Part shown: in pieces, positions 6,266-57,346 of the stretch
Position numbering within the stretch: position 1 is the first letter of the stretch
How the letters are laid out: each line of letters begins with the position of its first letter
Source: Acidobacteriota bacterium
GTDB taxonomy: Bacteria; Acidobacteriota; Terriglobia; Acidiferrales; UBA7541
Direction: 5' to 3'
DNA: 57,985 nt
NCBI GenBank assembly: GCA_003225295.1
Contig: QHYZ01000071.1
Coordinates: 1-57,985, forward strand
Notes under the pieces: generated by a model
Told to the model about the DNA's origin: nothing
The model's input: the letters and a program-made list of their open reading frames with translations, nothing else
Database searches by the model: none
Translations under genes and position numbers: made by a program

Positions 6266-6778
6266 CTAGCGAGTGATTTCCTCCTGCTTCTCTGCCGGAT
6301 CAGCTTTCCCTCGAAAAAAGGCCGAGAAGGGCCGCCTGCGGGTCGCATAGCCCCAGACAAAACATTGCGCCAGCACTGCGCCAAAGGCGTCAATCGCTGC
6401 ATCGCGCGGTGTCGCTTCCCGTAGCGGAACGAATGACTGGTGCCATTCGTCGAGCGCCGCATACAAGACCGCGATCACCAGGGTCGTAAAAGCCCAGTTG
6501 AATTTCCAACCAGACCTTCCTGCACGGATCCCGCGAAACACCGTAATACTGAAGATCCCAAACTCCGTCACGTGGGCCGTCTTGCGGATGCCGAAGTGGA
6601 TGAGACGCAACATTCCGCGTGTGGCTCGCGGGAAGAGCCAGCGTAAGACTGGGAGGATGACGCTGACGGTCCGCTCAGCGGCAAAGGATTGTGTTGACAA
6701 GACCGAAATCAGGAGGGCGGCAAGAATTGCAGGAAACCAATAGCTCAATTGCGCTGTTCCGTGGGGTTGCTCAGACAT
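6266..6778 (-). CDS. VanZ-like family membrane protein
   Basis: The 170-residue protein matches the VanZ-like family: an N-terminal membrane segment, the RKTAHVTEFGIFS motif (about residues 65-80), and the DEWHQSFVPLREATPRDA motif (about 109-126) followed by a last membrane helix. About four membrane segments are predicted by eye. VanZ itself gives low-level teicoplanin resistance; other members occur often in polysaccharide and exosortase loci, with unknown chemistry. Its ATG lies 3 bases after the rfbD stop, so it is the last gene of the TPR-rfbC-rfbD-vanZ operon. That tight coupling suggests an envelope or EPS role rather than antibiotic resistance. Confidence 0.85.
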   Translation of the reverse strand: MSEQPHGTAQLSYWFPAILAALLISVLSTQSFAAERTVSVILPVLRWLFPRATRGMLRLIHFGIRKTAHVTEFGIFSITVFRGIRAGRSGWKFNWAFTTLVIAVLYAALDEWHQSFVPLREATPRDAAIDAFGAVLAQCFVWGYATRRRPFSAFFRGKADPAEKQEEITR

Positions 6779-6781
6779 AGC

Positions 6782-7636: not shown

Positions 7637-7641
7637 TGGGC

Positions 7642-8259
7642 TTATTTGTGCTGCGTTTCCCAGTCGTAGGCAATGTTGGGGTCGTTGTAAGGCAGTCGGA
7701 GCTCATCCGCTGGGTTGTAGTGGCGGTCGGTCAAATAAAGAAGTTGAATCGGTTCAACTCCTAAGGCTTTGTATCCATGGCCGATGCCGGGCGGAATTAG
7801 AATTTCCCAGGGGCGGAATCGTCCGACATAGATCGTGTTGATTAAGCCAAACGTCTTCGAATGACGCCGCAAGTCGTAGAGAAAAACTTGCACCATCCCG
7901 GTAACGGGAGCCCACAGATCGGTTTGCTCCGAATGGTAGTGGATCGCCTTAATCGTGTTGGGATAAGTGAGCGTCAGGGAAATCTGAATCTTTCGTGTGT
8001 TGTCCGGCACCATATCGCTGGCGAGCCCTCGGCCAAGCCGCGCAATTTCGGTGAAAAAACCCCGGTCATCGGGATAGATCTGGAGCGGCTCGATTCTGAC
8101 ACCGTCAATGAGGTCAGTCGAGTCCAGCTTGGCAATAATTTTGCCCATGGATTTCTCGGTTCGTTTGAGAATTGCCAACTCAATTCCGTTCCGTGTACCG
8201 AGGGAGACAATTTCTTCATCGCTTCTCTGCGTTGCGGACACTTCGGCCATCATTTTCAT
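7642..8259 (-). CDS. rfbC: dTDP-4-dehydrorhamnose 3,5-epimerase family protein (RmlC-like cupin)
   Basis: The core (from about residue 45) follows RmlC: PDDRGFFTEIARLG near the start, the catalytic-histidine region KAIHYHSEQTDLWAP, then VQVFLYDLR, and the cupin end PPGIGHGYKALG. The enzyme epimerises C3 and C5 of dTDP-4-keto-6-deoxyglucose, the third step of dTDP-rhamnose synthesis. The chosen ATG at 8259 has a strong ribosome-binding site (GAGGAGAG, 2 bases from the ATG). This gives a 37-residue N-terminal extension over usual RmlC; an inner ATG at 8148 would give the normal length but has a poor site. The motif is IHYH where classical RmlC has LHYQ, so a related epimerase specificity is possible. 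Second gene of the TPR-rfbC-rfbD-vanZ operon. Confidence 0.86.
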   Translation of the reverse strand: MKMMAEVSATQRSDEEIVSLGTRNGIELAILKRTEKSMGKIIAKLDSTDLIDGVRIEPLQIYPDDRGFFTEIARLGRGLASDMVPDNTRKIQISLTLTYPNTIKAIHYHSEQTDLWAPVTGMVQVFLYDLRRHSKTFGLINTIYVGRFRPWEILIPPGIGHGYKALGVEPIQLLYLTDRHYNPADELRLPYNDPNIAYDWETQHK

Positions 8260-8311
8260 GCCTCTCCTCGATTAAATCAGAGATTCTCCTCGCACGCACT
8301 GAGAAATGCAC

Positions 8312-10624
8312 CTACGAGCCCGCGGTTTGGCTCAGTGCCCGGCGCGCCTCGTTGGCAAGTGGCGATTTCGGGTCGAGGCTAATCGTTTTCTCGAACTCTG
8401 TGCGAGCTCTGCCCAAATCGTTGAGTCTTTGATAAGTCAAACCGAGGTGATAGTGGTAAGTCAAGTTCCCTGGGGCTTTCTTGACGGCATCTTCGAAGAA
8501 GGGCACGGCGACCGAGTAGGCTCCGTTATGGTAATACGCCCAGCCAAGCGTATCTGCGGAATTCGGCAGGTTTGGCAGGCCGCGCCGAGCGGTCTGAGCG
8601 AGTGTAAGAGCTACATTCACGCTTTCCTTGTGCTCGATCATGATGTAGGCCAAGTTGTTCGCTGCCAGCGCGTCTTCGGGTTGGATCGCCAACGCCTTCT
8701 GGTAGAGGGTCTGGGCTTGCTGCCAATCGCCCTGGCTCTCATGGAGCCTGCCCAAAGCGACATAGAGCCGGACCTCATGGGGCGCAACTCCTATGGCTCG
8801 TTGATAGTTTGCAATCGACCGATCAAACTTTCCAAGCGATGATTCTATTTCTGCCAGCAGGACAAGCGCACTGACGTTTTGTCCGTCCATTTCCACGGTC
8901 CGTTCCAGGGAGTGTTCGGCTTCTTCCGGCTGCTTGTTTTGAAGCAGTGCTTTTCCCTGCAATAAGTAGAGAGCCGCCTGTTGGGAATTGGAGTCGAGTT
9001 GCTCTTGAATCAGCCGCAAAGCCTGGGCAGGCTTCTTGTTGAGGAGATCCAGGTCCACCAGTCCCTCGAGAGCCGCTAAGGAATGGGGATATCGAGCAAG
9101 ACCTTGGCGGTACATTTTTTCCGCCTCGTCCAGGCGTTTTTGTGCCACACGCAGCTGGCCTAGCTTGACGTATCCAAGCGCACTGTTTGGCGCGATCACG
9201 AGCAGTTGATTCAAATCCGCTTCCGCAGCCGCGGCATCGCCTTGATTCATTCTAGCCGTTGCATGGAACAGATAGCCCTCTGCGGCGCGCGGCGCGATTG
9301 TCTTGAGTTGATCAGCGATGGACTCGAGCTCTCTCCAGTCTCCGTGTTGCAAAGCATTCACGCCGAGTGCCTTCCACGCCTCAGAAAAGTTGGGACGCAA
9401 TCGTACCGCTTCGCGCCACTCGCTTTTAGCCTGCTGAGTGCTGCCCTTCTGCTGGAATGCGGAGCCGAGTTGGTAATGCCCCATGGCGTCTTCGGGGGCG
9501 TACTTGAGAGCTTGTTCTAACGATGGAATGCTCTCATCCACTTTCTTCTGCTGGAGCTGGATCTGCCCTTTCAGGATCAGCGCCTCGGCATCCTGCGGTG
9601 TTTTCTTTAGAATCGCGTCATTGAGCGGGTTGGCTTCGTCGATCCTGCTATTCGAGATCAGCAGCTGAATGTAAGTCTTTCTTACGGTCAGATCATTCTG
9701 ATGTGCCGCAGAGAGGGCGCCGAATTCCGCGAGGGCTTTGGCATTTTCTCCACGCCTCAGATAATAATCACCGAGCATACGGTACGCCGCTGGATCGTCA
9801 CTCAATTGTTGTTTGGCGTCCGTCAGAACTTTTTCCGCAAGCGAGTCTTGCCCTTGAGCGAGATAGAGACCCGCGAGCCCCATGCGTGGCGCGGTGGACT
9901 TGGGCGTGAGGCTAGTCGCCGCCTGAAATTCTTTCTCTGCGTCGGCCCACCGTCCCTGCCGCTCGTAGAGATTCGCTAGAGCTAACAGCGGAGTGATCGA
10001 TCCAGGATCGAGGGATTGTGCTTTCTTGAGACTGGCCTCTGCGTCGTCAAAGGCGCTGGTTCTCGCCTGGATCAGACCCAAATTAATAAGACTTGCGGAA
10101 CGATCCGGGGCCATTTCTGTGGCTGTTCTTGCTTCCTCGAGAGCGTCCTCCAGATTCCCCAATGCGGCATCCGCGTCAGACAAGAGTATTTGTGCGTCCG
10201 CGTGTTTTGGGTTTCCCTGAAGGATGAGAATAGCGCGATCTTTGGCTTCCTGAGATTTACCACCAACGAGCAAGAGTTGACCCAGGTCTAGATGGGCGGG
10301 CCAGTTTTGCGGCTGGAGATCAACGGTGCGGGAGAGCTCCTGGAAGGCCGCCGCCCAACTGCTCTGCCTGAGGAGGCACTGGGCGCGTTTGTAGTGCGCC
10401 TCGACGAACCGCGGGTCGATCTGCAAGGCACGGCTGTAAGAGATGTTGGCCTCGGCGTACTTACCTTTCTCGAAATAGAGGTCGCCCTGCTGCAGGAACT
10501 TCAGTTTGCGCACATGGGGATCAAGCGAGCAGCCAGCCACAAGGGCGGCCAGGAGCAGGAAAAACGCATAAGACCACAGCAAACTGGCCTTGCGCCTGAT
10601 AGGCACTGATCTACAAGAATGCAC
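8312..10624 (-). CDS. TPR-repeat lipoprotein, PrsT-like, of the exosortase/EPS system
   Basis: From the GTG at 10624 the protein is 770 residues long. It opens with a lipoprotein signal (RRKASLLWSYAFFLLLAALV, then the lipobox AGC) and continues as an almost unbroken array of about 18-20 tetratricopeptide repeats (for example YFEKGKYAEANISYSRALQ and ALAIQPEDALAANNLAYIM). Large TPR lipoproteins of this form (PrsT family) accompany exosortase/PEP-CTERM polysaccharide loci and probably act as periplasmic or outer-membrane scaffolds. An open frame reaches back to 10717, but GTG 10624 has GAGGTG as ribosome-binding site, starts the signal peptide properly, and lies just inside a sigma-54-type promoter at 10653-10668. 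First gene of the operon with rfbC, rfbD and the VanZ-like gene. I infer a role in polymer export or assembly. Confidence 0.85.
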   Translation of the reverse strand: MHSCRSVPIRRKASLLWSYAFFLLLAALVAGCSLDPHVRKLKFLQQGDLYFEKGKYAEANISYSRALQIDPRFVEAHYKRAQCLLRQSSWAAAFQELSRTVDLQPQNWPAHLDLGQLLLVGGKSQEAKDRAILILQGNPKHADAQILLSDADAALGNLEDALEEARTATEMAPDRSASLINLGLIQARTSAFDDAEASLKKAQSLDPGSITPLLALANLYERQGRWADAEKEFQAATSLTPKSTAPRMGLAGLYLAQGQDSLAEKVLTDAKQQLSDDPAAYRMLGDYYLRRGENAKALAEFGALSAAHQNDLTVRKTYIQLLISNSRIDEANPLNDAILKKTPQDAEALILKGQIQLQQKKVDESIPSLEQALKYAPEDAMGHYQLGSAFQQKGSTQQAKSEWREAVRLRPNFSEAWKALGVNALQHGDWRELESIADQLKTIAPRAAEGYLFHATARMNQGDAAAAEADLNQLLVIAPNSALGYVKLGQLRVAQKRLDEAEKMYRQGLARYPHSLAALEGLVDLDLLNKKPAQALRLIQEQLDSNSQQAALYLLQGKALLQNKQPEEAEHSLERTVEMDGQNVSALVLLAEIESSLGKFDRSIANYQRAIGVAPHEVRLYVALGRLHESQGDWQQAQTLYQKALAIQPEDALAANNLAYIMIEHKESVNVALTLAQTARRGLPNLPNSADTLGWAYYHNGAYSVAVPFFEDAVKKAPGNLTYHYHLGLTYQRLNDLGRARTEFEKTISLDPKSPLANEARRALSQTAGS

Positions 10625-13630: not shown

Positions 13631-14566
13631 TCAGTTCCTTGGTTCAGAAGATGCGGCCAATTCCTTCTTTCCCGCCAGGGCCGGTGATTCTCCGCGCTGC
13701 AACAGTAAGAAAACCGGCAGCAACAAGAGTAAGCCCAGCAGGAAGAACAAAATTCCACCATCACGGTGAAGTGTCCCAAACAGAAAGCTCGGATCTACGT
13801 ACATCGCTAACAGAGTCAGGGTAACGATGCGCACGCCGTTTTTCAGAATCATCATGAAGAATGCGCACGTCAAGAAGAACAACTTCTTCCAGAGAGAGTG
13901 CAAGCCGTAATGTACAGCCGGTAGCGCCAGAATGAAAAGTGCTATGGTGGAGCGGATTCCGCTGCATTCTCTTGCCACTTCGATGTTAACGCGAGCCAGG
14001 TGGAAGACCAGCCCCTCTCTCAGAACGGGAACTCCGGTCAAGTTAAAGAGAACTTCGGTGATTTCTGCGGAACCAGTCTGCAACAAGGAGATGATGCGTT
14101 CCAGTAGGAAATTTGGCACCGGCACCATGAGAAACAGAAAAAGAAAAGAGAAGTAGGCCGATTTTACGGCAGCCATCCCGAAGGAAAAAGCAAATCCCGC
14201 TATCCAAAGCAAAATGACCGCCAGGACATTGCCTGTCAGCCGGAGATCGGGAGTCATTATGTCTCCGGCCAGGCGCACACTGATGGCGATGATGACAGAC
14301 AAGAAAAGGAAAATGGCGCCACCCGCTTGGAAGGAAAGATTGTTGAAAACAGTGCGGCGTTCGATGAATAGCAGGCCAGCCGTGAGGAAGGGAATCAGGA
14401 TGAGGTGGGAGGCATTTTCATTCGTGAGCGATAAGCGAACGAGAGCAATCAGAGGTTTGGCGAAGAGCAGCGAACTAACCATAATCCAAAAGCTAAACAA
14501 CAGCCAGCGCTTTAAAACATTGTTCCGCTTGTCATCCAATGCATTTGACTCCGTTACGTTTGCCAC
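13631..14566 (-). CDS. Exosortase (EpsH/XrtA-like transpeptidase)
   Basis: The 311-residue integral membrane protein has about eight hydrophobic helices and the exosortase catalytic triad: Cys201 in RECSGIRST, Arg246 in NGVRIVTL and His267 in LHRDGG. Exosortases cleave PEP-CTERM sorting tails and transfer the protein to an envelope acceptor. A matching substrate, ending PEPATAVLLL plus a basic tail, is encoded at 45111-45791. There is no C-terminal EpsI domain and no epsI gene was seen. The start is GTG at 14566. It is the third gene of the minus-strand rfbA-rfbB-exosortase set (gaps 56 and 74 bases). The XrtA subtype is not fixed by what I can see; the neighbouring TPR protein, kinase, FemAB and ExeA-like ATPase support XrtA. 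Confidence 0.93.
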   Translation of the reverse strand: MANVTESNALDDKRNNVLKRWLLFSFWIMVSSLLFAKPLIALVRLSLTNENASHLILIPFLTAGLLFIERRTVFNNLSFQAGGAIFLFLSVIIAISVRLAGDIMTPDLRLTGNVLAVILLWIAGFAFSFGMAAVKSAYFSFLFLFLMVPVPNFLLERIISLLQTGSAEITEVLFNLTGVPVLREGLVFHLARVNIEVARECSGIRSTIALFILALPAVHYGLHSLWKKLFFLTCAFFMMILKNGVRIVTLTLLAMYVDPSFLFGTLHRDGGILFFLLGLLLLLPVFLLLQRGESPALAGKKELAASSEPRN

Positions 14567-23108: not shown

Positions 23109-24203
23109 ATGAGTCCAGTGCGTGCATTTGTCCCAGACGACATTCCACAGGCCGCAGATTTGAACTGGAACGTCTTACGTCGCGGTAAGGGGCCTGCTCC
23201 GGCAGCACTCCGCTCCTACTTTGAAAGGCTGTATTTTCACAACCCCTGGGTTGACGAATCGCTTCCTTCTCTCGTTTTCGAAGATGCCACACAAAAAATA
23301 GTTGGGTTCCTCGGCGTCATTCCGCGACCAATGTCGGTGCGAGGAGAACCGCTGCGGGCTGCTTTCGGAAGCAATCTTGTCGTCCACCCCGACAGCCGTT
23401 CCACTCTTGCGGGTTTGCACCTAGTCAAGACATATCTTGCAGGTAAGCAAGACATATCTCTGAGCGATTCAGCAAACGAGCTGACTGCAAAGGTTCAGAA
23501 GGGATTGGGTGCCGTTACGCTCTTGCTCGATAGCATCCACTGGTCACGCCCCCTTCGGCCGTCGCTTTACGCTCTTGACGCAATATGCCGCTTAAGCAAG
23601 AACAAACTCACGGCGGCTCTGAAGTCCCTTGCTAAACCGTTTGGAATGCTTGCTGACAATGTCGTCACGAAGATCTCTTCGAGTCCTTTCCATCAGGATG
23701 TTCCTCGGCTCAAAGGCGAAAATCTACGTGTCGACACGTTGCTTAAGTGTTATTCCGATTTTTCAAGTAGGTACGCGTTGCGCCCCGAATACGATCTCGG
23801 CTCGCTGAAATGGCTTCTCGATTTTATGGATCAAATGAAGGCTTATGGTGAGGTCCAGCGGACCCTTCTGCGAAATGACAGAAATGAGATCGTTGGTTGG
23901 TACATATACTACTTGAAGCGGGGAGGTGTGGGAGAAGTCGTGCAAATTGGCGGTGCGAAGCCGTTCACCGCAGATATTCTGCGTCATCTTTTTTTTGATG
24001 CCTGGAAGCAGGGAGCAATCGGACTGCACGGACGGCTCGAGGCGCGATGGGTTGAAGAACTGTCCAGCACGGGTTGCTTTTTTTACCGTAGGGGCGGCTG
24101 GATGCAAGCCCACTCCCGCAGACCAGAATTACTCAGGCTCATCCAAGACGGCGACGCTTTCCTAACTCGACTTGACGGGGAGTGGTGCCTTACCAGTAAT
24201 TAG
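23109..24203 (+). CDS. GNAT-like N-acetyltransferase family protein
   Basis: The 364-residue protein starts with a GNAT-style N-terminus (VRAFVPDDIPQAADLNW) and has the strand-turn-helix core FLGVIPRPMSVRGEPLRAA followed by SNLVVHPDSR and AGLHLVKTYL, as in acetyltransferases of polysaccharide loci. A second, less clear GNAT-like half follows (NEIVGWYIYYLKRGGVGEV). Probably it acylates a sugar or sugar-lipid in the cytosol; the acceptor cannot be told. No membrane helix or signal is seen. It lies between the GT2-deacetylase gene and the ACP gene in the plus-strand assembly region, so acetyl-CoA or acyl-ACP may be donor. Confidence 0.7.
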   Translation: MSPVRAFVPDDIPQAADLNWNVLRRGKGPAPAALRSYFERLYFHNPWVDESLPSLVFEDATQKIVGFLGVIPRPMSVRGEPLRAAFGSNLVVHPDSRSTLAGLHLVKTYLAGKQDISLSDSANELTAKVQKGLGAVTLLLDSIHWSRPLRPSLYALDAICRLSKNKLTAALKSLAKPFGMLADNVVTKISSSPFHQDVPRLKGENLRVDTLLKCYSDFSSRYALRPEYDLGSLKWLLDFMDQMKAYGEVQRTLLRNDRNEIVGWYIYYLKRGGVGEVVQIGGAKPFTADILRHLFFDAWKQGAIGLHGRLEARWVEELSSTGCFFYRRGGWMQAHSRRPELLRLIQDGDAFLTRLDGEWCLTSN

Positions 24204-24478: not shown

Positions 24479-24739
24479 ATGAGTAACGAAAAGAATCTGG
24501 AAGCGACCATCAAGGTAATCATGGCACGAATTTTCGAAGTTCGTCCGGAGGAGATCACGGACAAAACTCGCCGCCGAGAGCTGGAACGCTGGGATTCACT
24601 AAGTCATCTAACGCTGTTAGTTGCTTTGCAAGAGGAATTTCATATCGAAATCCCTCAGGATCAGGCCCTGGAAATGGAAACCCTGGAAGATATCAAACGT
24701 GCGGTATCATGTTCTGATAGAATCGCTTCTCCGAACTAG
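24479..24739 (+). CDS. Acyl carrier protein
   Basis: This 86-residue acidic protein has the ACP fold. Helix 1 is followed by the RWDSLSHLTLL motif, in which Ser40 (DSL) is the site for the 4'-phosphopantetheine arm; the next segment VALQEEFHIEIP is typical of stand-alone carrier proteins. It carries acyl groups as thioesters in the cytosol. No phosphopantetheinyl transferase or ketosynthase gene is nearby, so it is unlikely to serve bulk fatty-acid synthesis. Possible loaders are the acyl-CoA-ligase-like enzymes at 37924 and 42572; possible users are the GNAT-like and FemAB-like proteins. ATG 24479 fits the domain start better than the upstream GTG-type frame. Confidence 0.9.
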   Translation: MSNEKNLEATIKVIMARIFEVRPEEITDKTRRRELERWDSLSHLTLLVALQEEFHIEIPQDQALEMETLEDIKRAVSCSDRIASPN

Positions 24740-36003: not shown

Positions 36004-36173
36004 AATGCCGTACTTGAACACTTCAGAAGGCTGTTCTGAATCATACTGAGAATCATGAGAGAAAGCGTGATCTTCAAGCCCCGCATGTTAATGTGTGCCT
36101 GTTCGCGGGAAGGGCCGTCCAGTGGTTTCTCGGGCTGACTCATGAGCACCGCGCACAGCAGAGAGGGTTTTTG

Positions 36174-37709
36174 ATGAGCGCTCTTCCAGTAGCCCCGTTC
36201 GTTGATCTAAGTTCTTTCCTCTCCCACCTTGAACGCACTGGGCGTTTGCACCGAGTCTCCAAACTCGTTGATAAAGATTGGGAAATTGCCTGCCTGGCTC
36301 GCTGGGCCATGGAATCCACACCGGAAAAGGATTCCTACGCTCTCCTGTTTGAGAATGTGAAGAATCAGTCCGTGCCTGTGGCCGTCAACCTGTTTTCCAC
36401 CCCCGAGATGTACGGAGCGGCGCTCGGCGTTCATTCGGACGAGTTGCTTATGGCTTGGGCCAAGGCCCTGGATCGACCGTACAAGCCCGTTGAGGTTGCC
36501 AATGGTCCGGTATTCGATGTCATCGGCACTGACTCGCAGCTCAGCCTTCTGAAGCTCCCCGCTCCCATTTGGACTCCTGGCCGTGACGGCGGACCATATC
36601 TCAGTGCCGCGAGTGTGATCACCAAAGACCCGGATACTGGTATCCAGAATATGGGCATCTACCGGATGCAAATCCATGACCAGAACCATGTCGGCCTCTC
36701 CTTCGGCAGTAAATTGCAGCACGGTGCCATCCATTATTCGAAATACTCTAAACGTCAGCTGCCCATGCCGGTGGCGGCGGTGATCGGCGCTCCACCGGTT
36801 ATCAGTTTTGCCGCGGCTGCCAAGACTGCTTACGGTGTCGACGAAATGGAGATCGCGGGAGGTCTCGCCGGTTCTGCTTTGCAGGTGGTGCGCGGAAAAA
36901 CCGTGGATTTAGCCATCCCTGCCCAGGCCGAGTGTGTAATCGAAGGTTTTGTGCGCTGCGACGCGCTGCGAATGGAAGGTCCGTTCGGGGAAGTCTTGGG
37001 TTACCTGAACCAATCTTCTCCGGCACCCGTCGTTGATGTCACCGCCATCTATCACCGAGCGGCCCCTATACACCATGGGTATGTGCAACAGATGCCTCCC
37101 TCGGATGGCCACCTGGTCATGGAGATGGGATTCCTCGGGCCACTCTGGTTTTACCTCACCCGCAAGCTCGGGCTGAAGGGTGTTCGCAATCTCGCCATCG
37201 CGCGTGGTAGCGCCAGTTTGGCAATTCTTGTTGCTCAGATCGAAAAAGCGCATGTGTCGGAGAGTGCCCGCATCGGTCGCGCGCTGGCTAAGTTCAATTT
37301 GGGGCAGAAATTCATCTACCTGGTAGACGAAGACATTGACATTCGAGATCAAGAAACCCTCAACTGGGCGTTGAGCTCGCGCGTAGACCCCGAGCGCGAT
37401 ATTGAATTCATCAAGGACTTTCCCACATTTCAGTACGACCCCTCCACTCTCGCGCGTGCAGCCAAGGACGGCAGAGAGCTCGGCGCTCCCCCGTATCCTT
37501 CATCTGTGGCCATCGTCAACGCGACCGTAAAGTGTGCCGTGCCGGAGATCTCGCTGCCCGGGCGCTCAGTGATGTTCAAGGCATTGGAGAATTGGGGTGA
37601 AACAGGGCTCCCACCCATCACTCCGCGAAAGCGTCTGGATCGATTGCTCCATACTCATTCAGACCCTGTTCCTGCCTCAGACCAGAACTTTGATTCGCAC
37701 CAGGGTTGA
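36174..37709 (+). CDS. UbiD-family decarboxylase (prenylated-FMN dependent)
   Basis: The 511-residue protein is a full-length UbiD homologue: LSSFLSHLERTGRLHRVSK at the start, the cofactor region NMGIYRMQIHD, the central ASVITKDPDTG, DEMEIAGGLAGSALQVVRGK and EGPFGEVLGYL, which holds the conserved acidic residue, then DEDIDIRDQETLNWALSSR near the end. UbiD enzymes reversibly decarboxylate aromatic or alpha,beta-unsaturated acids with prenylated FMN. A UbiX flavin prenyltransferase is not in this window. ATG 36174 has GAGAGGG as ribosome-binding site. Here it sits between methyltransferase and ligase genes, not with quinone genes, so it could act on a special acid; ubiquinone or menaquinone synthesis remains possible. 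Confidence 0.9.
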   Translation: MSALPVAPFVDLSSFLSHLERTGRLHRVSKLVDKDWEIACLARWAMESTPEKDSYALLFENVKNQSVPVAVNLFSTPEMYGAALGVHSDELLMAWAKALDRPYKPVEVANGPVFDVIGTDSQLSLLKLPAPIWTPGRDGGPYLSAASVITKDPDTGIQNMGIYRMQIHDQNHVGLSFGSKLQHGAIHYSKYSKRQLPMPVAAVIGAPPVISFAAAAKTAYGVDEMEIAGGLAGSALQVVRGKTVDLAIPAQAECVIEGFVRCDALRMEGPFGEVLGYLNQSSPAPVVDVTAIYHRAAPIHHGYVQQMPPSDGHLVMEMGFLGPLWFYLTRKLGLKGVRNLAIARGSASLAILVAQIEKAHVSESARIGRALAKFNLGQKFIYLVDEDIDIRDQETLNWALSSRVDPERDIEFIKDFPTFQYDPSTLARAAKDGRELGAPPYPSSVAIVNATVKCAVPEISLPGRSVMFKALENWGETGLPPITPRKRLDRLLHTHSDPVPASDQNFDSHQG

Positions 37710-37815
37710 GACCGAATTAGGCCAGGAGCTCCCCTCTAAGATCCTGCCGACATGCTCCGTAACTTATTGACAATTAATAGGTTACAGAACACTCTCGACA
37801 TCGTTCCTCATACTA

Positions 37816-37831
37816 AGGCAGCGAAATTGCT
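37816..37831 (+). promoter_or_regulatory. Sigma-54-type promoter before the HTH-acyl-CoA ligase gene
   Basis: AGGCAGCGAAATTGCT differs from the consensus only at the first base, with exact GG-N10-GC spacing and TTGCT. The predicted start near 37842 is about 80 bases before the ATG. Confidence 0.6.
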
Positions 37832-37923
37832 CTCCCTGCGGCTTATTCCGGGATGCAGAGAGAATTATAAAGATTGGCGCAGGCGATAAAAACACTGAAA
37901 ATATCTGGTAGGGGAGCTCCTTG

Positions 37924-39702
37924 ATGGTCAAATTGTTCACGGCGCCCGAAACAGCGGCACAGCTGCAGATCGAACTCGACACGCTGTATCGCTACGCACG
38001 CAGCGGAGACTTGCGGGGTGTAAAGGTCGGGAAAGTGTGGCGTTTCACCGCGGATGACATTCGGGACTTCATCAGTGCCCGGGGACACCATCCACCAACC
38101 GAGGATCACGCTCCTCGCCTGCTACAGGACGCCCTCCGCAATGCCGCCAAGGAGTCCGGGGACCAGACTAAGTTCATCTGTGGTACTGAACGTCTGTCTT
38201 ATGCCGAAATTGATCGTTATTCGGATGGCCTTGCCAATCGGTTGGTCGCGCGTCATGTCCGCTCGGGCGATCGTATAATCCTCGGCCTGCCCAATTCAGC
38301 CGCGTTCGTTATTGCCTGTTTCGCAATATGGAAAGCTCGGGCTGTCGTAGTCGCGCTTGATCCCGCCATGCGCTCCACAAATCTGCAGCATATTTTGGAG
38401 AGAGCGGAGCCGACGGCGCTAATTGCGGAGCCGAGTTTTGTGGAAAGGGTTCAGGAAATGCCGGGGGTTCTCCGTTTCTTCCGCGTTTTTTTCTTGAAAG
38501 ACCCTTCTGCAGCTCTACCGGAAACTGCCCAGATCGCCGTGGAGTCCTTGCAAACGGCAATTGCCGGCGATCTCGAAACGGGAGCACTGCCGGCCGGTGC
38601 ACGGCCGGATGACTTGGCAACCATCACCTTCACCAGCGGCTCGACCGGCGTGCCGAAAGGTGTCATGCACACGCACGAGAGTACGCTGGCGTGCGCATCG
38701 TTTACGCTCAATTTCCTGGAGTTGTCGAAGACCGACGTCATGGTGGTGCCCCTTCCTTTGCATCATATTCTTGCCTTTCGTCGGTTTCTTACCTGCTTTT
38801 TGGCACAATCGACCGCGCTGATTGCGCCCGACATTTTTGTGGCTTTGAGCCAATTCCCAGTGTTGCGTCCCACCGGCTTGGTCTTGGTTCCAGCGGCTTG
38901 CAATATGATCATCGACACTTTCGCTTCCTTTTTCCGTCACAACGGTAACTCCCTGCGCTATGTCGAAATCGGTTCTGAACCCATGTCTCCAGAAAGGCTG
39001 AGCGCCTTGCAAGCCATCTTGCCCAACACACAGATCCACTTGACCTATGGACTTACAGAGGGGCGCGTTGGATACCTCAAGCGCGGCCCCCGCGGTGTCT
39101 TTAACCGCCTCGCGGGTTCAAATGATGGCTTGCAAGTACAAGTCGTGGATGGTCAGGGCCAGCCGGTTGCCCCCGGTGAGACCGGCGAAATCCTGCTCCG
39201 AGGGTCCGGACTTTTGAAGGGCTACTTGGGTGATTCTCAAGAGGCGCTCACCAGTATAAGGAACAATGGATTCCGAACAGGTGACATGGGAATGATGGAA
39301 GCCAACGGTGACATCCAATTGATGGGTCGCATGGATGACATCCTTAAGGTTGGCGGCCACAAAATCAATCCGCGCGAAGTGGAGGCGGTCCTGCAGCGGC
39401 ACCCGAACGTGGCAGAAGCGGTTCTTGTAGGACTTGCGGACCCACGAAAAATCATGGAGGTAAAACTCCATGCGTTTGTAGTCCCCAGAAAAGACGCCGT
39501 CCCCACTGCCGCAGAGCTGGTGGCCCATTGCCGGCTCCATTTGGAACCCTACAAAGTGCCTGCAAGTATCCAGTTTCGCGCCTCATTCCCGAAAACGACG
39601 CTTGGTAAGATCCAGCGCCACTTGGTGACCCAAGAAGCACAGGGGGCCGCGGTGGAAGAGGGTGATCCTTCTCAGGGCCCAAACAATCCAGTTGGTGCCT
39701 GA
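37924..39702 (+). CDS. Acyl-CoA/acyl-ACP ligase with N-terminal excisionase-type helix-turn-helix
   Basis: Residues 4-52 are an excisionase-family (MerR-like) winged helix-turn-helix: TAPETAAQLQIELDTLYRYA, then GVKVGKVWRFTADDIRDFI. After a short linker, residues 65-570 form a complete adenylate-forming enzyme: P-loop TFTSGSTGVPKG (235-246), YGLTEG (375-380), RTGD (Asp454), GRMDDILKVGGHKINPREVE and the catalytic Lys562 (LGKIQRH). It would activate a carboxylic acid as acyl-AMP and pass it to CoA or a carrier protein such as the ACP encoded at 24479. The two domains are in one uninterrupted frame; the ATG at 37924 follows AGGGGAG at good spacing and precedes the DNA-binding domain. I know of no characterised protein of this form. 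It may sense its own substrate while bound to DNA, or the HTH may target it to a partner. Confidence 0.88.
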   Translation: MVKLFTAPETAAQLQIELDTLYRYARSGDLRGVKVGKVWRFTADDIRDFISARGHHPPTEDHAPRLLQDALRNAAKESGDQTKFICGTERLSYAEIDRYSDGLANRLVARHVRSGDRIILGLPNSAAFVIACFAIWKARAVVVALDPAMRSTNLQHILERAEPTALIAEPSFVERVQEMPGVLRFFRVFFLKDPSAALPETAQIAVESLQTAIAGDLETGALPAGARPDDLATITFTSGSTGVPKGVMHTHESTLACASFTLNFLELSKTDVMVVPLPLHHILAFRRFLTCFLAQSTALIAPDIFVALSQFPVLRPTGLVLVPAACNMIIDTFASFFRHNGNSLRYVEIGSEPMSPERLSALQAILPNTQIHLTYGLTEGRVGYLKRGPRGVFNRLAGSNDGLQVQVVDGQGQPVAPGETGEILLRGSGLLKGYLGDSQEALTSIRNNGFRTGDMGMMEANGDIQLMGRMDDILKVGGHKINPREVEAVLQRHPNVAEAVLVGLADPRKIMEVKLHAFVVPRKDAVPTAAELVAHCRLHLEPYKVPASIQFRASFPKTTLGKIQRHLVTQEAQGAAVEEGDPSQGPNNPVGA

Positions 39703-40108
39703 CTGGCTGTGTGCCCTCCAATGATGGGAAGCCAAGCTCAAGGCTGTCGCGCGCAAAACTCGGTGACGGCTTGACCGAACTTCTCTCCACAAAACACGAT
39801 GGCGCGTCAAACCTAGGCGTCATGCATGGTTTTTCCTGACTTGCTCCGATCCTCTCTGAGTAAGAACGCTGTCACACGACCTTTGCCAAAGTTTCCAAAG
39901 GATTGGCCTTGGCCCCTCCGATCGAACTCCAGCGACTTTGCGGTTGAAACCCTCGGCACTCATCGTGTTCCAGAGGGCATGGAACGATACCGATTGGATT
40001 CCGAAGCTAGCGAACTTCCCTCTAGCGGGGACAACCAAGGGCGACAGTATATTGGGGCGCCGCTCCGCGCGAGAACACACTTCGTATGCTTATAGGCTTG
40101 GGGCGATT
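39703..40108. other. Convergent intergenic region, nothing recognised
   Basis: Four hundred bases between the converging HTH-ligase and hemA genes. Open frames here (for example 39820-40080 minus, 39826-40095 plus) have no family features. No convincing terminator hairpin was found. Confidence 0.4.
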
Positions 40109-41335
40109 CTAGGACTTACCGTGGGCTTCCGCGATCGCGTGAGAATATTCAATCGAGTGATTTCCCGAGCCATTGAGAAATTTGTCCAGCAGGCACGTGA
40201 AATGCAACCGCTCAGGCTCAGTGAGATGAGGCATTGCGGCAAGATGCTGGCGGAGCAAGGCTTCGCGTTTATGCTCGGGCACGGCTCGCAGTTGGGCGTA
40301 CGCCGCACACGCCGCCACACCAGCCTGCCAGCGCATGAAGCCCTCGATCTGCTCTTCGATCAGAGCGGTGGCGCGTGGAATCTCCTCTTCGCGCGCTCTC
40401 TTGTTTTGTTCAACAACCTCAGTGAGGTTATCGATATCGGAAAGATGGACTTGCGGGAGCGATTTTACAGCGGGATCCACGTTTCGTGGCACCCCCAAGT
40501 CCATGATCACTATTGGTCGGTTCCCCCGGACAGTCATAGCTGCTTCGAGATGCGTGCGCGTGAGAATTGGTTCCGGACTACTGACCGAAGTCACGATGAG
40601 GTCGGGCCAGTCCAGCACCTCAGGAAGCTTTTCCCAGGGCAAGACCTCGCCCCCATAGCGCGCCACGAGTGTTCTGGCATTTTCAGTCGTGCGATTCAAA
40701 ATCCGCAGTTGCGGAACGCCCCGGGCACACAGGTGTTTCACTACCTGTTCGCTCGTCGCACCCGCCCCCACAATCATGATCCGCTGATTCTCCAAGCCTG
40801 ACAAAAGGACCTCTGCCTGTTTCACGCCCGCAAACGCCACGGACATCGGCCTCGAACCGATCTGCGTTTCCGTCCGAATGCGCTTGCCAACTTCCAGCGC
40901 CGACTGGAACAGTCGATTCAGGACACGACCGGTCGACCCGTAATCCATTGCCACACGATACGCTTCCCGAACTTGGCCGAGGATTTCCGACTCCCCCAAC
41001 AGCAAGGAATCCAGCCCGGCTGCCACGCGATAAAGGTGACGAACGAGATCGCGGTCACTGTGGCGGTAGACGGCTGAGCCCATCTCGGCAGGCGCCAACC
41101 GGTGGTAAGAAGCGACGAACATCTCCATCGCCTGGAGGATGTCGCCGGAGCGCTCTCGCGCCACGCCGTAAACCTCCGTGCGATTGCAAGTCGAGAGGAT
41201 CACAGCTTCCTTGAGGACGCCGCGGGCACGCAGTTGGTCGGTGGCTTCGCAAGCCTGCTCAACGCGAAACGCAATTCGTTCGCGCAGTGCGAGGCCCGCG
41301 GTGCGGTGGCTAATTCCTATGACGGCGAGTTCCAT
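40109..41335 (-). CDS. hemA: Glutamyl-tRNA reductase
   Basis: The 408-residue protein has the features of GluTR: N-terminal VIGISHRTAGLALRER, the nucleophile Cys50 in LSTCNRTEVY, the RVAAGLDSLLLGESEILGQV signature, the NADPH site IVGAGATSEQ and the C-terminal helical dimerisation domain. It reduces glutamyl-tRNA to glutamate-1-semialdehyde, the first committed step to 5-aminolevulinate in the C5 pathway. It lies 151 bases after hemB on the same strand, not with hemC/hemD as in many core haem operons. No hemL aminotransferase is in the window. It could be the housekeeping copy or a second copy feeding a special product; the sigma-54-type promoter in front of the operon favours the second. Confidence 0.95.
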   Translation of the reverse strand: MELAVIGISHRTAGLALRERIAFRVEQACEATDQLRARGVLKEAVILSTCNRTEVYGVARERSGDILQAMEMFVASYHRLAPAEMGSAVYRHSDRDLVRHLYRVAAGLDSLLLGESEILGQVREAYRVAMDYGSTGRVLNRLFQSALEVGKRIRTETQIGSRPMSVAFAGVKQAEVLLSGLENQRIMIVGAGATSEQVVKHLCARGVPQLRILNRTTENARTLVARYGGEVLPWEKLPEVLDWPDLIVTSVSSPEPILTRTHLEAAMTVRGNRPIVIMDLGVPRNVDPAVKSLPQVHLSDIDNLTEVVEQNKRAREEEIPRATALIEEQIEGFMRWQAGVAACAAYAQLRAVPEHKREALLRQHLAAMPHLTEPERLHFTCLLDKFLNGSGNHSIEYSHAIAEAHGKS

Positions 41336-41486: not shown

Positions 41487-42575
41487 CTACTTCAGCTCAT
41501 TCGCCACTTCCTTTGCAAAATAGGTGATGATGATGTCTGCACCGGCGCGTTTCATCGAGATCAGCGCTTCCATCATGATCAGCTTTTTGTCGAGACGGCC
41601 AATCCGTGCTGCGGCGTCGATCATGGCGTACTCGCCGCTCACGTTGTACGTGGCCAACGGCATCTGGAATTCCGTCTTCGCTCGGTACACGATATCCAGG
41701 TAATAAAGCGCGGGCTTCACCATCACAATGTCCGCGCCCTCTTCGATATCCATCGCAATTTCCCGCATCGCTTCATTGGAATTGCTGAAATCCATCTGGT
41801 GCGTCTTCTTGTCGCCATGCGACAACGTCGACTGCGTGCCTTCCTTGAAGAATGGATCGTAGAGCTTCGAAGCATATTTCGCCGAGTACGCCATGATGGG
41901 CGTGTTCACGAAGCCGTCGTCGTCCAGCGTTTGTCTCAGTGCGCGAATCTGTCCATCCAGCATCGCTGCCGGCGCCACCATGTCGCTGCCTGCTTGCACG
42001 TGCGAAAGAGCGGTTCTCGCCAGCACGTCTTTAGAAGCGTCGTTCAACAAGTACCCGTCCTGGAGGATCCCGCAATGGCTGTGTGTCGTGTATTCGCACA
42101 GGCATACGTCGGTCACGACCAGAAGTTCGGGCACATTCTTTTTCAGCGCGCGAACTGCTTCCTGAACGATTCCGTTGGGCGCGTAGGCGCCCGTGGCAAG
42201 CAAATCTTTTTCCTTGGGGTCCGGTACCCCAAACAAGAGAATCCCGGGAATTCCGAGGTCGCGAATTTCTTTTGCTTCCTCGATCAATTTATCGATGGAA
42301 AGATGATAGTTGCCTGGGATCGCATTGATTTCGTGCTTTATGCCGTGGCCGGGCACCACGAACAAAGGCAAGATCAAATCGTCAATCGACAGTGAATGTT
42401 CGCGCACCAAGCGCCGGAATCGGTCGTTCTGCCTGAGCCTTCTCAGTCTTCGGGCAGGAAATCCTGTTCCGGCTTCCCTTCCGTACGATGGCGCTGGTCC
42501 GCCAATCGTCTGAGTCCTCTGCTGTGGCATATTCTCTTCAAGCAAGGTCACTGCTGATTTATTGTTCATAGTCAT
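41487..42575 (-). CDS. hemB: Delta-aminolevulinic acid dehydratase (porphobilinogen synthase)
   Basis: The 362-residue enzyme joins two 5-aminolevulinates to porphobilinogen. The zinc-type active site is present: Cys158, Cys160 and Cys168 in DVCLCEYTTHSHCG, and the Schiff-base lysines Lys233 (YSAKYAS) and Lys287 (MVKPALYYLD). Length is normal apart from about 35 extra N-terminal residues. The ATG at 42575 overlaps the stop of the PaaK-like ligase gene (ATGA), so the two are translationally coupled; the open frame further upstream lies inside that gene. The HSHC spelling replaces the usual HGHC. The operon order ligase-hemB-hemA is unusual and ties porphobilinogen supply to an acid-activating enzyme. 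Confidence 0.95.
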   Translation of the reverse strand: MTMNNKSAVTLLEENMPQQRTQTIGGPAPSYGREAGTGFPARRLRRLRQNDRFRRLVREHSLSIDDLILPLFVVPGHGIKHEINAIPGNYHLSIDKLIEEAKEIRDLGIPGILLFGVPDPKEKDLLATGAYAPNGIVQEAVRALKKNVPELLVVTDVCLCEYTTHSHCGILQDGYLLNDASKDVLARTALSHVQAGSDMVAPAAMLDGQIRALRQTLDDDGFVNTPIMAYSAKYASKLYDPFFKEGTQSTLSHGDKKTHQMDFSNSNEAMREIAMDIEEGADIVMVKPALYYLDIVYRAKTEFQMPLATYNVSGEYAMIDAAARIGRLDKKLIMMEALISMKRAGADIIITYFAKEVANELK

Positions 42576-44212
42576 ATTTTTTGGCTCGCTGTACTGCGTT
42601 CCTCGCTGGGAACACTTTTGGGCTTCGAAACAAAGAAAGGCATGATCTTTCCGCTTACCGTCGGAACAGGAAATTCCCGGACGATTTGCAGCATGTTGGA
42701 CTGTTTCCACATCTCCGTGCCGGATTGCGACCAGGAATCAGGGCTGGCTTCCGCTCGTCGGAGGAGATTCAAGAATCGATCCAAGACCTCGGTTTCCTGG
42801 ATTTCTCCCACTCGAGGACTCACAAGCAGTTGCAGGTGGGTGAACCCGCGCGAATCTTCCTTCTCGACCAACTGATAATCGGTGCTTCTGCCGCCAAAGC
42901 GCTCCGGGAGATCTCTTTCAACTATGCGGATGAAGTCGGTGTCAACAAAGGTCACACCTTCCCCTGTTAGCTTCTCGTAACTCCGTATGTTGTTCAGGCA
43001 CGCATCAAATCCGACTTGCCCAAAGACGCAGGCGCAACTTTCGGAAGAGATCTCGCCATAATCCCCCATGCCCACATTGAGGAGAATCTTGGGGGATTCG
43101 TAAAGAAGCGAAGTGAACAAATAAGATTCAACGAACAAGTCCGAATGTGGAACGTTTTGACGATGGGAAATGATCGCGGTCGTATCTTTGTACAGGTGAC
43201 AATGGTCGCTCTGCGGATGGTTTTGGTCACAGCCGGCGGCAATCACCCCGGCCTCTGAGATCCCGTATACGGGAACTGGTGCCCCGCCCACGGCTTCGAT
43301 CTCCGTCCTCTTTTGCGGAGTGAGGGGCTCGCCCGTCACCAGGAATTTCGTGCCTTTGATGTTGAGATTTTTTTCTGCCGCTGCAATGCAGACGCGGACG
43401 GCCGAGGAAGCGAACGTATAAACGACACAGTTCTCGTGTTGTTGTAGCGCTGCTGCGGCCCACTCCGCGACTTTCAGAGCATCCTCCAGCCCCACATACT
43501 CGGGCTCGGCCAAACGACAGCCATGCAGTTTGCCAAGGGTGAAGATGAGCTTCGTGCCCCATTTCTTCTCCCAGTTGACGTTGAGCTGATCTTCTGGCAC
43601 CTGGGAAAACCATCTTTGAACCGGATTGCCGATATCTGCGAACCGCAGGCTCGAATTGATGCCTGGTGCGCCAGGAAAGATCGGAAACCAGTTCGCGATG
43701 GGCGCCTTCAAGCAGCCATGCATGTTCAGGAAAAGAGCGTCGTAGAGCGATCGCTGATGTAAGTAGTCAAAGTCGATTCGGACTCTCGTGCCCGCGCTCC
43801 GTGTAGCGCCGCTTCGCACTTCGTAAACGTAGGAGAGAAAAGGATTATCGAACATGCCTTCTTGGCACCAGAACTCGATGCCATTGCGCACCACCGGCAC
43901 TTTGCCTTTGAATTCGTCAACGGTGAAATACACTCCCTCGTTTTCCAGAGTGCGCAGCGCTCGCTCGATTCCGTCTTTTCCCACCCAGGTTTTCAAGTCA
44001 TTGAACTGGATTCGCTTGCGCTCAAGTAACTTCAGATATGGGCTGCAGGCGTATTGGAAGATTCCTTTTTCGACAAAACTCAGGAAGTTTTCCTCGCGCG
44101 CCAAGACCCGTTTTCGGATGGAATCATTTGCCTTGGCGAGCGCTTCGTCGGGCGTCATTCGCTGTTCAGCGAATCTTCGAAATCCCTCCACGAATCGGTC
44201 GTACTTTCTCAT
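42572..44212 (-). CDS. PaaK-like adenylate-forming enzyme (phenylacetate-CoA ligase family)
   Basis: The 546-residue protein resembles PaaK-type AMP ligases: a Ser/Gly/Thr-rich phosphate loop (RSGATRSAGTRVRI at about residue 133), the central FLVTGEPLTPQKRTEIEAVG and VYGISEAG motifs, and a C-terminal SGKIMPFF that carries the likely catalytic lysine. Extra N- and C-terminal stretches make it longer than PaaK (about 430). Such enzymes activate aryl or acyl acids to acyl-AMP and pass them to CoA, a carrier protein or an amine. It is first in an operon with hemB and hemA and has a sigma-54-type promoter 110 bases upstream. The phosphate loop deviates from the usual SSGTTG form, so activity needs caution. 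Coupling an aminolevulinate-derived unit to an acid is a possible role, by inference. Confidence 0.75.
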   Translation of the reverse strand: MRKYDRFVEGFRRFAEQRMTPDEALAKANDSIRKRVLAREENFLSFVEKGIFQYACSPYLKLLERKRIQFNDLKTWVGKDGIERALRTLENEGVYFTVDEFKGKVPVVRNGIEFWCQEGMFDNPFLSYVYEVRSGATRSAGTRVRIDFDYLHQRSLYDALFLNMHGCLKAPIANWFPIFPGAPGINSSLRFADIGNPVQRWFSQVPEDQLNVNWEKKWGTKLIFTLGKLHGCRLAEPEYVGLEDALKVAEWAAAALQQHENCVVYTFASSAVRVCIAAAEKNLNIKGTKFLVTGEPLTPQKRTEIEAVGGAPVPVYGISEAGVIAAGCDQNHPQSDHCHLYKDTTAIISHRQNVPHSDLFVESYLFTSLLYESPKILLNVGMGDYGEISSESCACVFGQVGFDACLNNIRSYEKLTGEGVTFVDTDFIRIVERDLPERFGGRSTDYQLVEKEDSRGFTHLQLLVSPRVGEIQETEVLDRFLNLLRRAEASPDSWSQSGTEMWKQSNMLQIVREFPVPTVSGKIMPFFVSKPKSVPSEERSTASQKI

Positions 44213-50391: not shown

Positions 50392-51351
50392 CTACTCATC
50401 AGACTCGGATACCCGTAAGCCAGTTTGCCTAATTTTGTACAACAAGGCCTTATAGCTGATCTGTAATTCTCGAGCAGCGCGCTTGCGGTTCCACTGCGTG
50501 CGTTCGAGCGCTTTCAGAATCAGCTCACGCTCCGTACTCCGTGACGCAGCGCGGGCAGCCACCTTGAGCGAGCAAACCCGCGGTCCGTCAATCACCTGCG
50601 GAAATCTCTGTGGCGCGGCTCGCAGATCGTCGAGCGCCACCTGGGCATCCCCGACAGCCACAATCTTCTTTGCCACATTCTCTAGCTCGCGAATATTCCC
50701 CGGCCAGCTATAGGAGGCGAGAAGTGCAATCATTTCGGTGCTCAAAACCGGAGCCGACTTCTTCAATTCAGCCGCATGTCTGGTTAAAAAGCATTCCATC
50801 AGTGCGGGAATGTCTTCCTTGCGATTGCGCAGCGGCGGCAGGCGGAGGCACACCCCACTGATTCGGAAATACAACTCCCGGCGAAAGCGCTCCGCTTCGC
50901 TATCTTTTTCCAGGTTGCGGGTAGTGGAAGAGATCAGTCGGGCAGTCAGCTGACCGGATTCCCCGTTCCGCTCGCCGTCTGGGAGCAAGGAGAGCAGCAC
51001 GCGCTGACAGGCTAGGTCGAGCTCCTCCACTCCATCTAGAAATAAGGAGCTCGACCCGTGGTCCTCTGCTTCAGTTCGCAGGCAATCCTGAACCTGCCCA
51101 AGAAGGCGGCCGGGATCGAGTGTTGCGCAGCTAATTTTCTTCAACTGCGCTTCTTTTAGGCCAGAGAGACGATGTATGAGTCTGGCGTAGACTTCTTTAC
51201 CGCTGCCACTCTCTCCAATCAAGAGAACGGCGATGTCCGTACGCGCGATGTCGGCCACCATCGTGTTCAAGGCTTGGATGGCGGGACCTTGGCCAAAGAC
51301 AAAACCGGTCTTGGCGGCTAAACCCAGCGTATGATTGATTTCGGAGCTCAT
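50392..51351 (-). CDS. Sigma-54-activator-like AAA+ protein lacking GAFTGA, with Fis-type HTH
   Basis: The 319-residue protein has the AAA+ core of sigma-54 enhancer-binding proteins: Walker A GESGSGKE (46-53), the arginine-finger region RFRRELYFRI, the sensor II motif WPGNIRELEN, and a C-terminal Fis-type HTH (WNRKRAARELQISYKALLYK). There is no receiver, PAS or GAF domain. Two essential parts are altered: the L1 loop where GAFTGA should contact sigma-54 is absent (sequence around 85-100 is GQVQDCLRTEAEDHGS), and the Walker B reads LFLDG, not LFLDE. It therefore probably cannot open sigma-54 promoters itself and may be an inhibitor, partner or DNA-binding helper of the intact-looking activator at 56213. 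It heads an operon with the Wza-like gene. Confidence 0.88.
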   Translation of the reverse strand: MSSEINHTLGLAAKTGFVFGQGPAIQALNTMVADIARTDIAVLLIGESGSGKEVYARLIHRLSGLKEAQLKKISCATLDPGRLLGQVQDCLRTEAEDHGSSSLFLDGVEELDLACQRVLLSLLPDGERNGESGQLTARLISSTTRNLEKDSEAERFRRELYFRISGVCLRLPPLRNRKEDIPALMECFLTRHAAELKKSAPVLSTEMIALLASYSWPGNIRELENVAKKIVAVGDAQVALDDLRAAPQRFPQVIDGPRVCSLKVAARAASRSTERELILKALERTQWNRKRAARELQISYKALLYKIRQTGLRVSESDE

Positions 51352-56212: not shown

Positions 56213-57280
56213 CTACTCCAGACCTTCTGCCTTGTCGCGTGGGACTTTTGCTTGGGGCGCTTTACGACTGTTTTTCGGTGAAAGCCCCGCTTCCCGAATC
56301 TTGTATATCAATGCCCGGTAGCTGATGTTCAGCGCGAGCGCCGCCTTTCGGCGGTTCCATTTGTTTTCACGCAACGCGTTGAGGATCAGGTTCCCTTCCA
56401 TCTCGCGGATCGCTTGCTTGGCAATTCGCTTCAGCGGGATGGTCCCGTCAAGAGCCACGCGGAACGGAGCTGCGGAGGAACGTCTCGGCGCCTCTGGCTC
56501 CAAGGTATCGAGTGAACCCAGAATCGCATATCGCGCAACCACATTCTCGAGTTCGCGAATGTTTCCTCGCCATTCCCGGGACGACAAGCTTTCTATGTTT
56601 TCCTCGGAAAAGGTCGGCATATCGCGCTCGAAACGCTTGTTCAGGTGTTCTAGGAAGTAGTTCGCAAGCAACGCGATGTCTTCGCGCCGTTCGCGCAGGC
56701 CCGGCAAATTGATGCTGATTACGTTAATCCGGTAGAACAAATCCCGCCGGAAGCGCCCGGCCTCGATCTCGGTCTGCAAATCTCGATTGGTGGCGCAAAT
56801 GATGCGCGTTTCGGCCTGTCTTTCTTGCTTATCCCCGATTCGGCTGAAATGTCCATCTTGGAGTAACTGCAAGACTTTGGCTTGCAGGCTCAAATCCAGA
56901 TCCGCGATCTCATCGAGAAACAGAGTTCCTCGGTGCGCCATCTCCACATAACCCGGCTTGGACGTATGGGCATCCGTAAATGATCCCTTTTGGTAACCGA
57001 ACAATTCACTCTCGAGAAGAGCTCCCGGGATTGCGGCACAGTTCACTTTTACAAACGCGCCCGAGGACATTGCCGAATGGAAGTGAATGTATTGCGCGAG
57101 TAGCCCCTTTCCTGTTCCGTTCTCGCCTTGAATCAGGATCGGCACATCGGTTGCCAGTACCTTCTGCACTTTTTGCCGAATAGAAGTCATGGCCGGGGAA
57201 CGGCCAAAGATAATTTCCTCAGGAGGCAACCCACCCGCTCTCGAAGCCAATCCACCGTTTGTGTGATCGGAAACGGCCAT
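56213..57280 (-). CDS. Sigma-54-dependent transcriptional activator (AAA+, Fis-type HTH), GSFTDA variant
   Basis: From ATG 57280 (site GAGGGG, 7 bases before) the 355-residue protein has an almost bare AAA+ activator: Walker A GENGTGKG (52-59), the L1 loop GSFTDA (99-104) in place of GAFTGA, Walker B LFLDE (120-124), arginine fingers (RFRRDLFYRINV), sensor II WRGNIRELEN and a Fis-type HTH (WNRRKAALALNISYRALIYK). No receiver or ligand domain precedes it. The loop keeps the key Thr and Phe but has Asp for the second Gly. It is the best candidate to activate the sigma-54-type promoters of this locus; one lies just before its own gene (57331), so autocontrol is likely. The open frame up to 57337 lies across that promoter. 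Confidence 0.9.
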   Translation of the reverse strand: MAVSDHTNGGLASRAGGLPPEEIIFGRSPAMTSIRQKVQKVLATDVPILIQGENGTGKGLLAQYIHFHSAMSSGAFVKVNCAAIPGALLESELFGYQKGSFTDAHTSKPGYVEMAHRGTLFLDEIADLDLSLQAKVLQLLQDGHFSRIGDKQERQAETRIICATNRDLQTEIEAGRFRRDLFYRINVISINLPGLRERREDIALLANYFLEHLNKRFERDMPTFSEENIESLSSREWRGNIRELENVVARYAILGSLDTLEPEAPRRSSAAPFRVALDGTIPLKRIAKQAIREMEGNLILNALRENKWNRRKAALALNISYRALIYKIREAGLSPKNSRKAPQAKVPRDKAEGLE

Positions 57281-57330
57281 GTTGATCCCCTCGTGTTGCA
57301 TGCAGGTAGGGACTCCCCTGCTTTCCTCGT

Positions 57331-57346
57331 TGCACACATAGAACCA
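57331..57346 (-). promoter_or_regulatory. Sigma-54-type promoter before the activator gene
   Basis: On the minus strand TGGTTCTATGTGTGCA shows TGG and GTGCA with exact spacing. The predicted start near 57320 gives a 40-base leader to ATG 57280. This supports that ATG over earlier start codons. The rest of the gap to 57605 holds no gene I can recognise. Confidence 0.55.

Follow-up and report, generated by a model that had tools for sequence, protein, structure and literature searches.

The closest described parallel to the protein studied here is BirA, a group II biotin protein ligase in which, as we propose for our protein, an N-terminal HTH domain is joined to a C-terminal enzyme that first makes an acyl-adenylate and then hands its acyl group on to a carrier protein (PMC4016012; PMC6594144). 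According to the same two papers, the co-repressor is biotinoyl-AMP, which is made by BirA itself and accumulates once all of the acceptor protein has been modified. The catalytic fold of BirA is of the biotin-ligase type, whereas that of our protein belongs to the ANL family, and the carrier of BirA is the biotin carboxyl carrier protein and not a phosphopantetheine ACP. PMC6594144 lists the biotin protein ligases as a class of adenylate-forming enzymes separate from the ANL family; the likeness to BirA is therefore one of logic and not of descent.

Within the ANL family itself, FadD1 of P. aeruginosa, an acyl-CoA synthetase, was reported to bind promoters and to respond to a fatty acid signal; it has no HTH, and its authors place the binding in a leucine-zipper-like stretch of the AMP-binding domain (PMC12754631). 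In the open-access literature we found no described case of an ANL ligase with a fused HTH, nor one of gene control by the acyl-adenylate of such a protein. The preliminary description of this locus, according to which no characterised example is known, agrees with this result for the exact architecture but has to be qualified in a broader sense, as BirA and FadD1 (PMC12754631) are precedents.

Winged helix proteins of the BldC, Xis and MerR types have the fold and the excisionase profile in common with the HTH of our protein but carry no fused acid ligase. ANL ligases are very common in bacteria. The aryl-acid:carrier ligases of siderophore pathways (EntE, DhbE, PchD, CahJ), which are among the solved structures nearest to our protein, likewise have the ANL fold, activate an acid and deliver it to a carrier, in these pathways the aryl carrier protein of NRPS systems; they are about 22–25% identical to our ligase, and their entry names give no HTH. 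The acyl-CoA ligases of exosortase A systems (TIGR03098) are likewise ANL ligases of exosortase/EPS loci, but our protein lies well outside this family (217.9 bits against a cut-off of 592.35), and the match begins at residue 67, after the HTH.

The gene encoding the fusion was found in a contig of an Acidobacteriota bacterium [QHYZ01000071.1], whose 57,985 nucleotides were analyzed as a whole and are called the window below. It occupies positions 37924–39702 of the plus strand (ATG at 37924, stop at 39700–39702) and is a single open frame of 592 codons plus stop, without interruption. The excisionase-type winged HTH covers residues 4–53 (37933–38082, plus strand; HTH_17, PF12728, 42.3 bits against a Pfam cut-off of 27), with the recognition helix at about residues 17–28, and residues 1–60 also pass the NCBIfam model TIGR01764 'excisionase family' (33.6 bits, cut-off 28.8). 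A linker (residues 54–71; 38083–38136, plus strand) leads to the AMP-binding core (residues 72–435; 38137–39228, plus strand; PF00501, 240.8 bits, cut-off 29.9) and the AMP-binding C-terminal domain (residues 485–562; 39376–39609, plus strand; AMP-binding_C, PF13193, 61.4 bits, cut-off 24.5), whose last residue is the catalytic Lys562.

These data agree with the first reading of the frame as a winged HTH, then placed at residues 4–52, joined to a ligase complete with core motifs and Lys562. The motifs TSGSTGxPKG, YGLTE, (T/S)GD and GK562 are present in this protein and in three further fusions described below, the only exceptions being a variable residue 243 and a replacement of T452 by Ser in one of them; K562 itself was found in all four fusions and in nine of nine aligned ligases. 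Judged by its sequence, the ligase half is an ANL acid:CoA/carrier ligase, with a predicted activity. At E up to 0.001 the protein matched AMP-binding, AMP-binding_C and HTH_17 and no biotin-ligase family; it may work like BirA, yet it is no member of BirA group II. With a catalytic and a DNA-binding-type domain in one polypeptide, both assigned by homology, it has the architecture of a trigger enzyme.

A scan of the genome_contigs collection seeded with six exact 8-residue words revealed a full-length fusion, 45% identical to the window copy, on contig L060 of an uncultured planctomycete. Two more were found in genomes G880 and G862, which we call planctomycetes since they come from the same order as G451, the genome of contig L060; in total, three of 114 genomes of this order gave a fusion. 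The three proteins are 43–46% identical to the window protein, and HTH_17, AMP-binding and AMP-binding_C were confirmed in all of them, with PF12728 above its cut-off in each. As the word-seeded scan recovered only one of the three planctomycete fusions, the count of known fusions is a lower bound. The recovery of the same domain order elsewhere also settles a doubt raised with the preliminary description, namely that these might be separate genes joined by a sequencing error. Sequencing or assembly error was rejected, as the junction is the same in four separate genomes; we found no point in favor of such an error and regard its probability as negligible.

In a FastTree phylogeny of 93 ligases taken from the loci collected in this analysis, the four fusion ligases formed one clade with a support of 1.0 and a long stem (0.94). 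A single fusion event with a patchy distribution fits this clade, and transfer between phyla was probably part of its history. The fusion was found in one of 61 relatives, one of 36 genomes of the genus, at least one of 299 genomes of the window's class and at least one of 396 of its phylum, and in at least two of 377 genomes of the planctomycete class and at least one of 392 of the planctomycete phylum; these sets overlap and include the query's own genome where it belongs to them, the larger ones are samples, and in the class and phylum sets the first three or four candidates per genome were scored. No viral relative was revealed by a word-seeded scan of viral contigs. Plasmids gave 3014 records matching the fusion, all below 60% identity; two of the best 20 of these 3014 (H1 and H7) have no HTH before the ligase, and among the plasmid matches listed, those of H5 and H17 likewise begin early in the query.

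The rarity of the fusion, both in the genus of the window's genome and in the planctomycete order, speaks for the view that the HTH is a neutral passenger left over from a chance gene fusion. Comparison of the four proteins points mostly the other way. The identity to the window protein in L060, G880 and G862, respectively, is 62, 60 and 50% for the HTH and 44, 46 and 42% for the ligase core (residues 72–435), so that the HTH is the better kept of the two; the corresponding values are 48, 45 and 51% for the C-terminal domain of the ligase and 29, 43 and 33% for the linker. The preliminary description was to be given up if the recognition helix proved not to be conserved in orthologues. This did not turn out to be so: residues 17–28 are 100, 92 and 67% identical to those of the window protein, with G862 as the weakest case. 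Residues R23, R26, R31 and K34 are invariant in all four fusions. It should be mentioned that many of these invariant positions of the HTH are characteristic of the whole HTH_17 family and are thus evidence of an intact domain, not of a particular operator. Between the planctomycete proteins the picture is mixed (70, 46 and 44% for the HTH, 54, 52 and 54% for the core, 60, 58 and 58% for the C-terminal domain), which indicates that the HTH of G862 has drifted more than its enzyme. This lower conservation relative to its order mates is a second point for a passenger. Nevertheless, in comparison with the window copy the HTH has changed less than the ligase core, and all four copies pass the HTH_17 cut-off, so that we consider a passenger very improbable; to judge from these alignments the HTH is under constraint, with G862 as the least convincing copy.

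The fusions also share partner genes. The gene of an acyl carrier protein, the proposed partner of the ligase, lies at 24479–24739 of the window (plus strand; PF00550), and its product shares 47–57% identity with its counterparts in the three other fusion genomes, the pairwise identity among all four being 47–62%. A profile built from the window and L060 ACPs, which were both found by construction, gave a single strong match in G862 (E 3.3e-31) and another in G880 (E 5.1e-29), so that the independent result is two of two; all other matches in the four fusion genomes were at 4.6e-10 or weaker. Thus, the subfamily of this ACP, at first taken for an orphan, is present in all four fusion genomes, and its link with the ligase is stronger than could be known when the locus was first described.

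Directly upstream of the fusion gene, at 36174–37709 (plus strand; alternative start GTG at 36093), is the gene of a UbiD-family decarboxylase (PF01977, PF20695, PF20696), 54% identical to the UbiD of G862 and 58% to that of G880. A close UbiD thus adjoins the fusion in the window and is grouped with ACP, aldehyde dehydrogenase (ALDH) and SDR genes in two of the three other genomes; in the third, the L060 contig ends inside the SDR gene, which precedes UbiD in the other planctomycete genomes. The gene order of L060 is HTH-ligase, MfnB, ACP, ALDH and the SDR gene cut by the contig end. G862 has the HTH-ligase and MfnB on one contig and consecutive ACP, ALDH, SDR and UbiD genes on another. In G880, the first contig carries the HTH-ligase, MfnB and a second ALDH, and the second contig carries ALDH, SDR, UbiD, then a GNAT gene on the opposite strand, then the ACP.

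MfnB (4-HFC-P synthase) directly follows the HTH-ligase in all three planctomycete genomes (L060, 5432–6187; L119, 731–1498, minus strand; L129, 11628–12365). In L060 and G862 there is a four-base overlap between the start of its gene and the ligase stop, whereas the MfnB ATG of G880 lies about 20 bases downstream of that stop. With PF04476, no MfnB was detected in the genome of the window; two of 14 control genomes were positive, as expected. A comparison of all window frames of at least 60 codons with eight planctomycete stretches (E up to 1e-4) gave matches of UbiD, the fusion and the ACP; the remaining matches were shadow frames of these three and one short match of a LuxR-type protein (292–966). 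In 18 neighborhoods of non-fused ligase relatives, some of them short, no such ACP and no such HTH were found (blastp, E up to 0.01), and a distant UbiD (30%) was present in one. In this connection we observed on contig L118 a non-fused ligase frame (27% identical; 6648–8345) overlapping the frame of a UbiD relative (30%; 8054–9853, minus strand), perhaps a distant variant of the UbiD–ligase pairing.

The planctomycete set of MfnB, ALDH, SDR, UbiD, ACP and HTH-ligase suggests a furan acid pathway. It is apparently without prior description, and in the open-access literature we found no paper that treats MfnB, furan and acyl carrier protein together. Among the solved ligases nearest to the fusion are enzymes that activate salicylate, dihydroxybenzoate, benzoate and coumarate, but a gramicidin synthetase domain, oxalate-CoA ligase and MatB are among the best structural matches as well. 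The substrates of UbiD enzymes are aromatic or heteroaromatic acids. According to PMC8141765, MfnB makes the furan ring of methanofuran-type coenzymes. On this basis we favor, on a weak foundation, an aromatic or furan acid that would be activated, loaded onto the ACP and passed on. Methylofuran synthesis was considered as the pathway and not adopted, because the gene set is unlike that in PMC8141765 and the window's genome has no MfnB; it is still conceivable in the planctomycetes.

In the window, the acid may end up as a decoration on an exopolysaccharide or a lipid of the surrounding exosortase/EPS locus. The EPS setting claimed for this locus was broadly borne out, as the exosortase passes PF09721 and TIGR04178, while the chain-length, sugar-transferase and FemAB-type neighbors fall just or well below their NCBIfam cut-offs. 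The exosortase (13631–14566, minus strand) reached no NCBIfam subtype cut-off, the best models being XrtW, XrtC and XrtA, and its type is therefore left unassigned. The 364-aa protein encoded directly before the ACP (23109–24203, plus strand) matched no family of Pfam or NCBIfam (E up to 0.001); from its position beside the ACP it is a candidate acyltransferase for the ACP-bound acid. Two further observations concern other genes of the window. A 546-aa protein encoded beside hemB (42572–44212, minus strand) had no Pfam or NCBIfam match at cut-off but contains the stretches GEPLTPQKR and YGISEAG and a weak AMP-binding match (13.3 bits), and we take it to resemble a diverged PaaK/CapK-type adenylating enzyme. 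Two genes of the EPS locus (50392–51351 and 56213–57337, both minus strand) read by eye as sigma-54 activators with no obvious receiver domain.

We next consider what the HTH might bind. AlphaFold modeled it as strand-helix-helix-strand-strand-helix, in which the second helix is the recognition helix and the two strands form the wing. Folded alone from two sequences, the domain had a mean pLDDT of 85; residues 54–63, before the ligase, were of low confidence (pLDDT below 50). The best fold matches were DNA-binding proteins, BldC (Z 7.8), the Pukovnik Xis (7.6) and RdfS (7.2), followed by RacA and MerR-type proteins, and the whole list ranged from Z 6 to 8. Values below 8 are modest for a 60-residue domain, and these matches may reflect no more than a common arrangement. 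Foldseek with the HTH gave no match at E below 0.001, and its sequence-profile matches to BldC and Xis chains were weak (E 0.007–0.03).

The structural list also contained the protein-contact complex CbpM/CbpA (Z 6.5) and a DafA complex. These matches favor an alternative in which the HTH has lost DNA binding and serves as a docking domain that tethers the ligase to a pathway protein such as the ACP or UbiD, much as the MerR-like CbpM binds a J-domain. The flexible linker that carries the HTH and the recurrence of the partner genes are in line with docking, as is the failure to find an operator (see below). However, relative to the window copy no part of the HTH is kept as well as the recognition helix, with R23 and R26, together with R31 and K34, the top fold matches are DNA binders, and the cut-offs of TIGR01764 and PF12728 are passed. 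On balance, docking appears rather unlikely, although it is the strongest of the alternatives.

Searches for regulatory sites gave little. The sigma-54-type promoter initially ascribed to the gene did not hold up, since the sole upstream candidate (37816–37831) has two mismatches and is at chance level, sites of that quality occurring 35 times in the window against 31.8 ± 5.1 expected by chance. No sigma-70-type site was found in 37600–40200. A weak possible operator is the 27-bp imperfect palindrome GTAACTTATTGACAATTAATAGGTTAC upstream of the fusion (37759–37785, plus strand). It is only marginally unusual: when the 214-bp region was shuffled 2000 times, an equally good palindrome arose in 93 cases. 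The whole window contains 32 such palindromes against 14–34 in five shuffles. In the genome we found one exact copy and two look-alikes with three mismatches (none for the reversed control), one before a gene that reads by eye as dnaK and the other inside another frame. No counterpart was seen before the partner genes. Among eight upstream regions, those of the ligase, ACP and UbiD genes in the four fusion genomes, no ungapped word of 8 to 10 bases with one mismatch was shared beyond the level of 30 shuffles. A two-copy 10-nt direct repeat was observed before the L060 fusion.

The HTH could also bind DNA and regulate genes independently of catalysis, as a fused autoregulator without sensing through the ligase. 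None of the neighboring window genes scanned (methyltransferase, UbiD, HemA, HemB and the 42572 protein) encodes a regulator, and this gap would suit such a role, as would the low-confidence and probably flexible linker. Against it, one fusion event has been retained at about 45% divergence across two phyla, though separate genes would suffice. We hold this version to be unlikely, and less probable than docking.

The explanation that we prefer, at about even chances, is a two-part trigger enzyme of an acid:ACP ligase pathway, which would follow the logic of BirA on an unrelated catalytic fold. In this scheme, the ANL half would convert a carboxylic acid, perhaps an aromatic or heteroaromatic one, to its acyl-AMP and load the acyl group onto the ACP whose gene lies at 24479, and the neighboring UbiD decarboxylase would act in the same pathway. 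The N-terminal winged helix of the BldC/Xis/MerR kind, on its flexible linker, would bind DNA and thereby feed the state of the pathway back on the pathway's own genes. When acid and ATP are plentiful and free carrier is short, the enzyme would stay loaded with acyl-AMP, change its assembly and bind its operators. Somewhat more doubtful, though still possible, is the full claim that the protein is an independently evolved counterpart of BirA in the ANL family, whose own acyl-AMP or carrier state decides the DNA binding of the HTH and so controls the UbiD and ACP pathway, together with MfnB in the planctomycetes. If this is true, the logic of BirA would have evolved twice, on unrelated folds, and acid sensors could be built on the ready-made design of this fusion.
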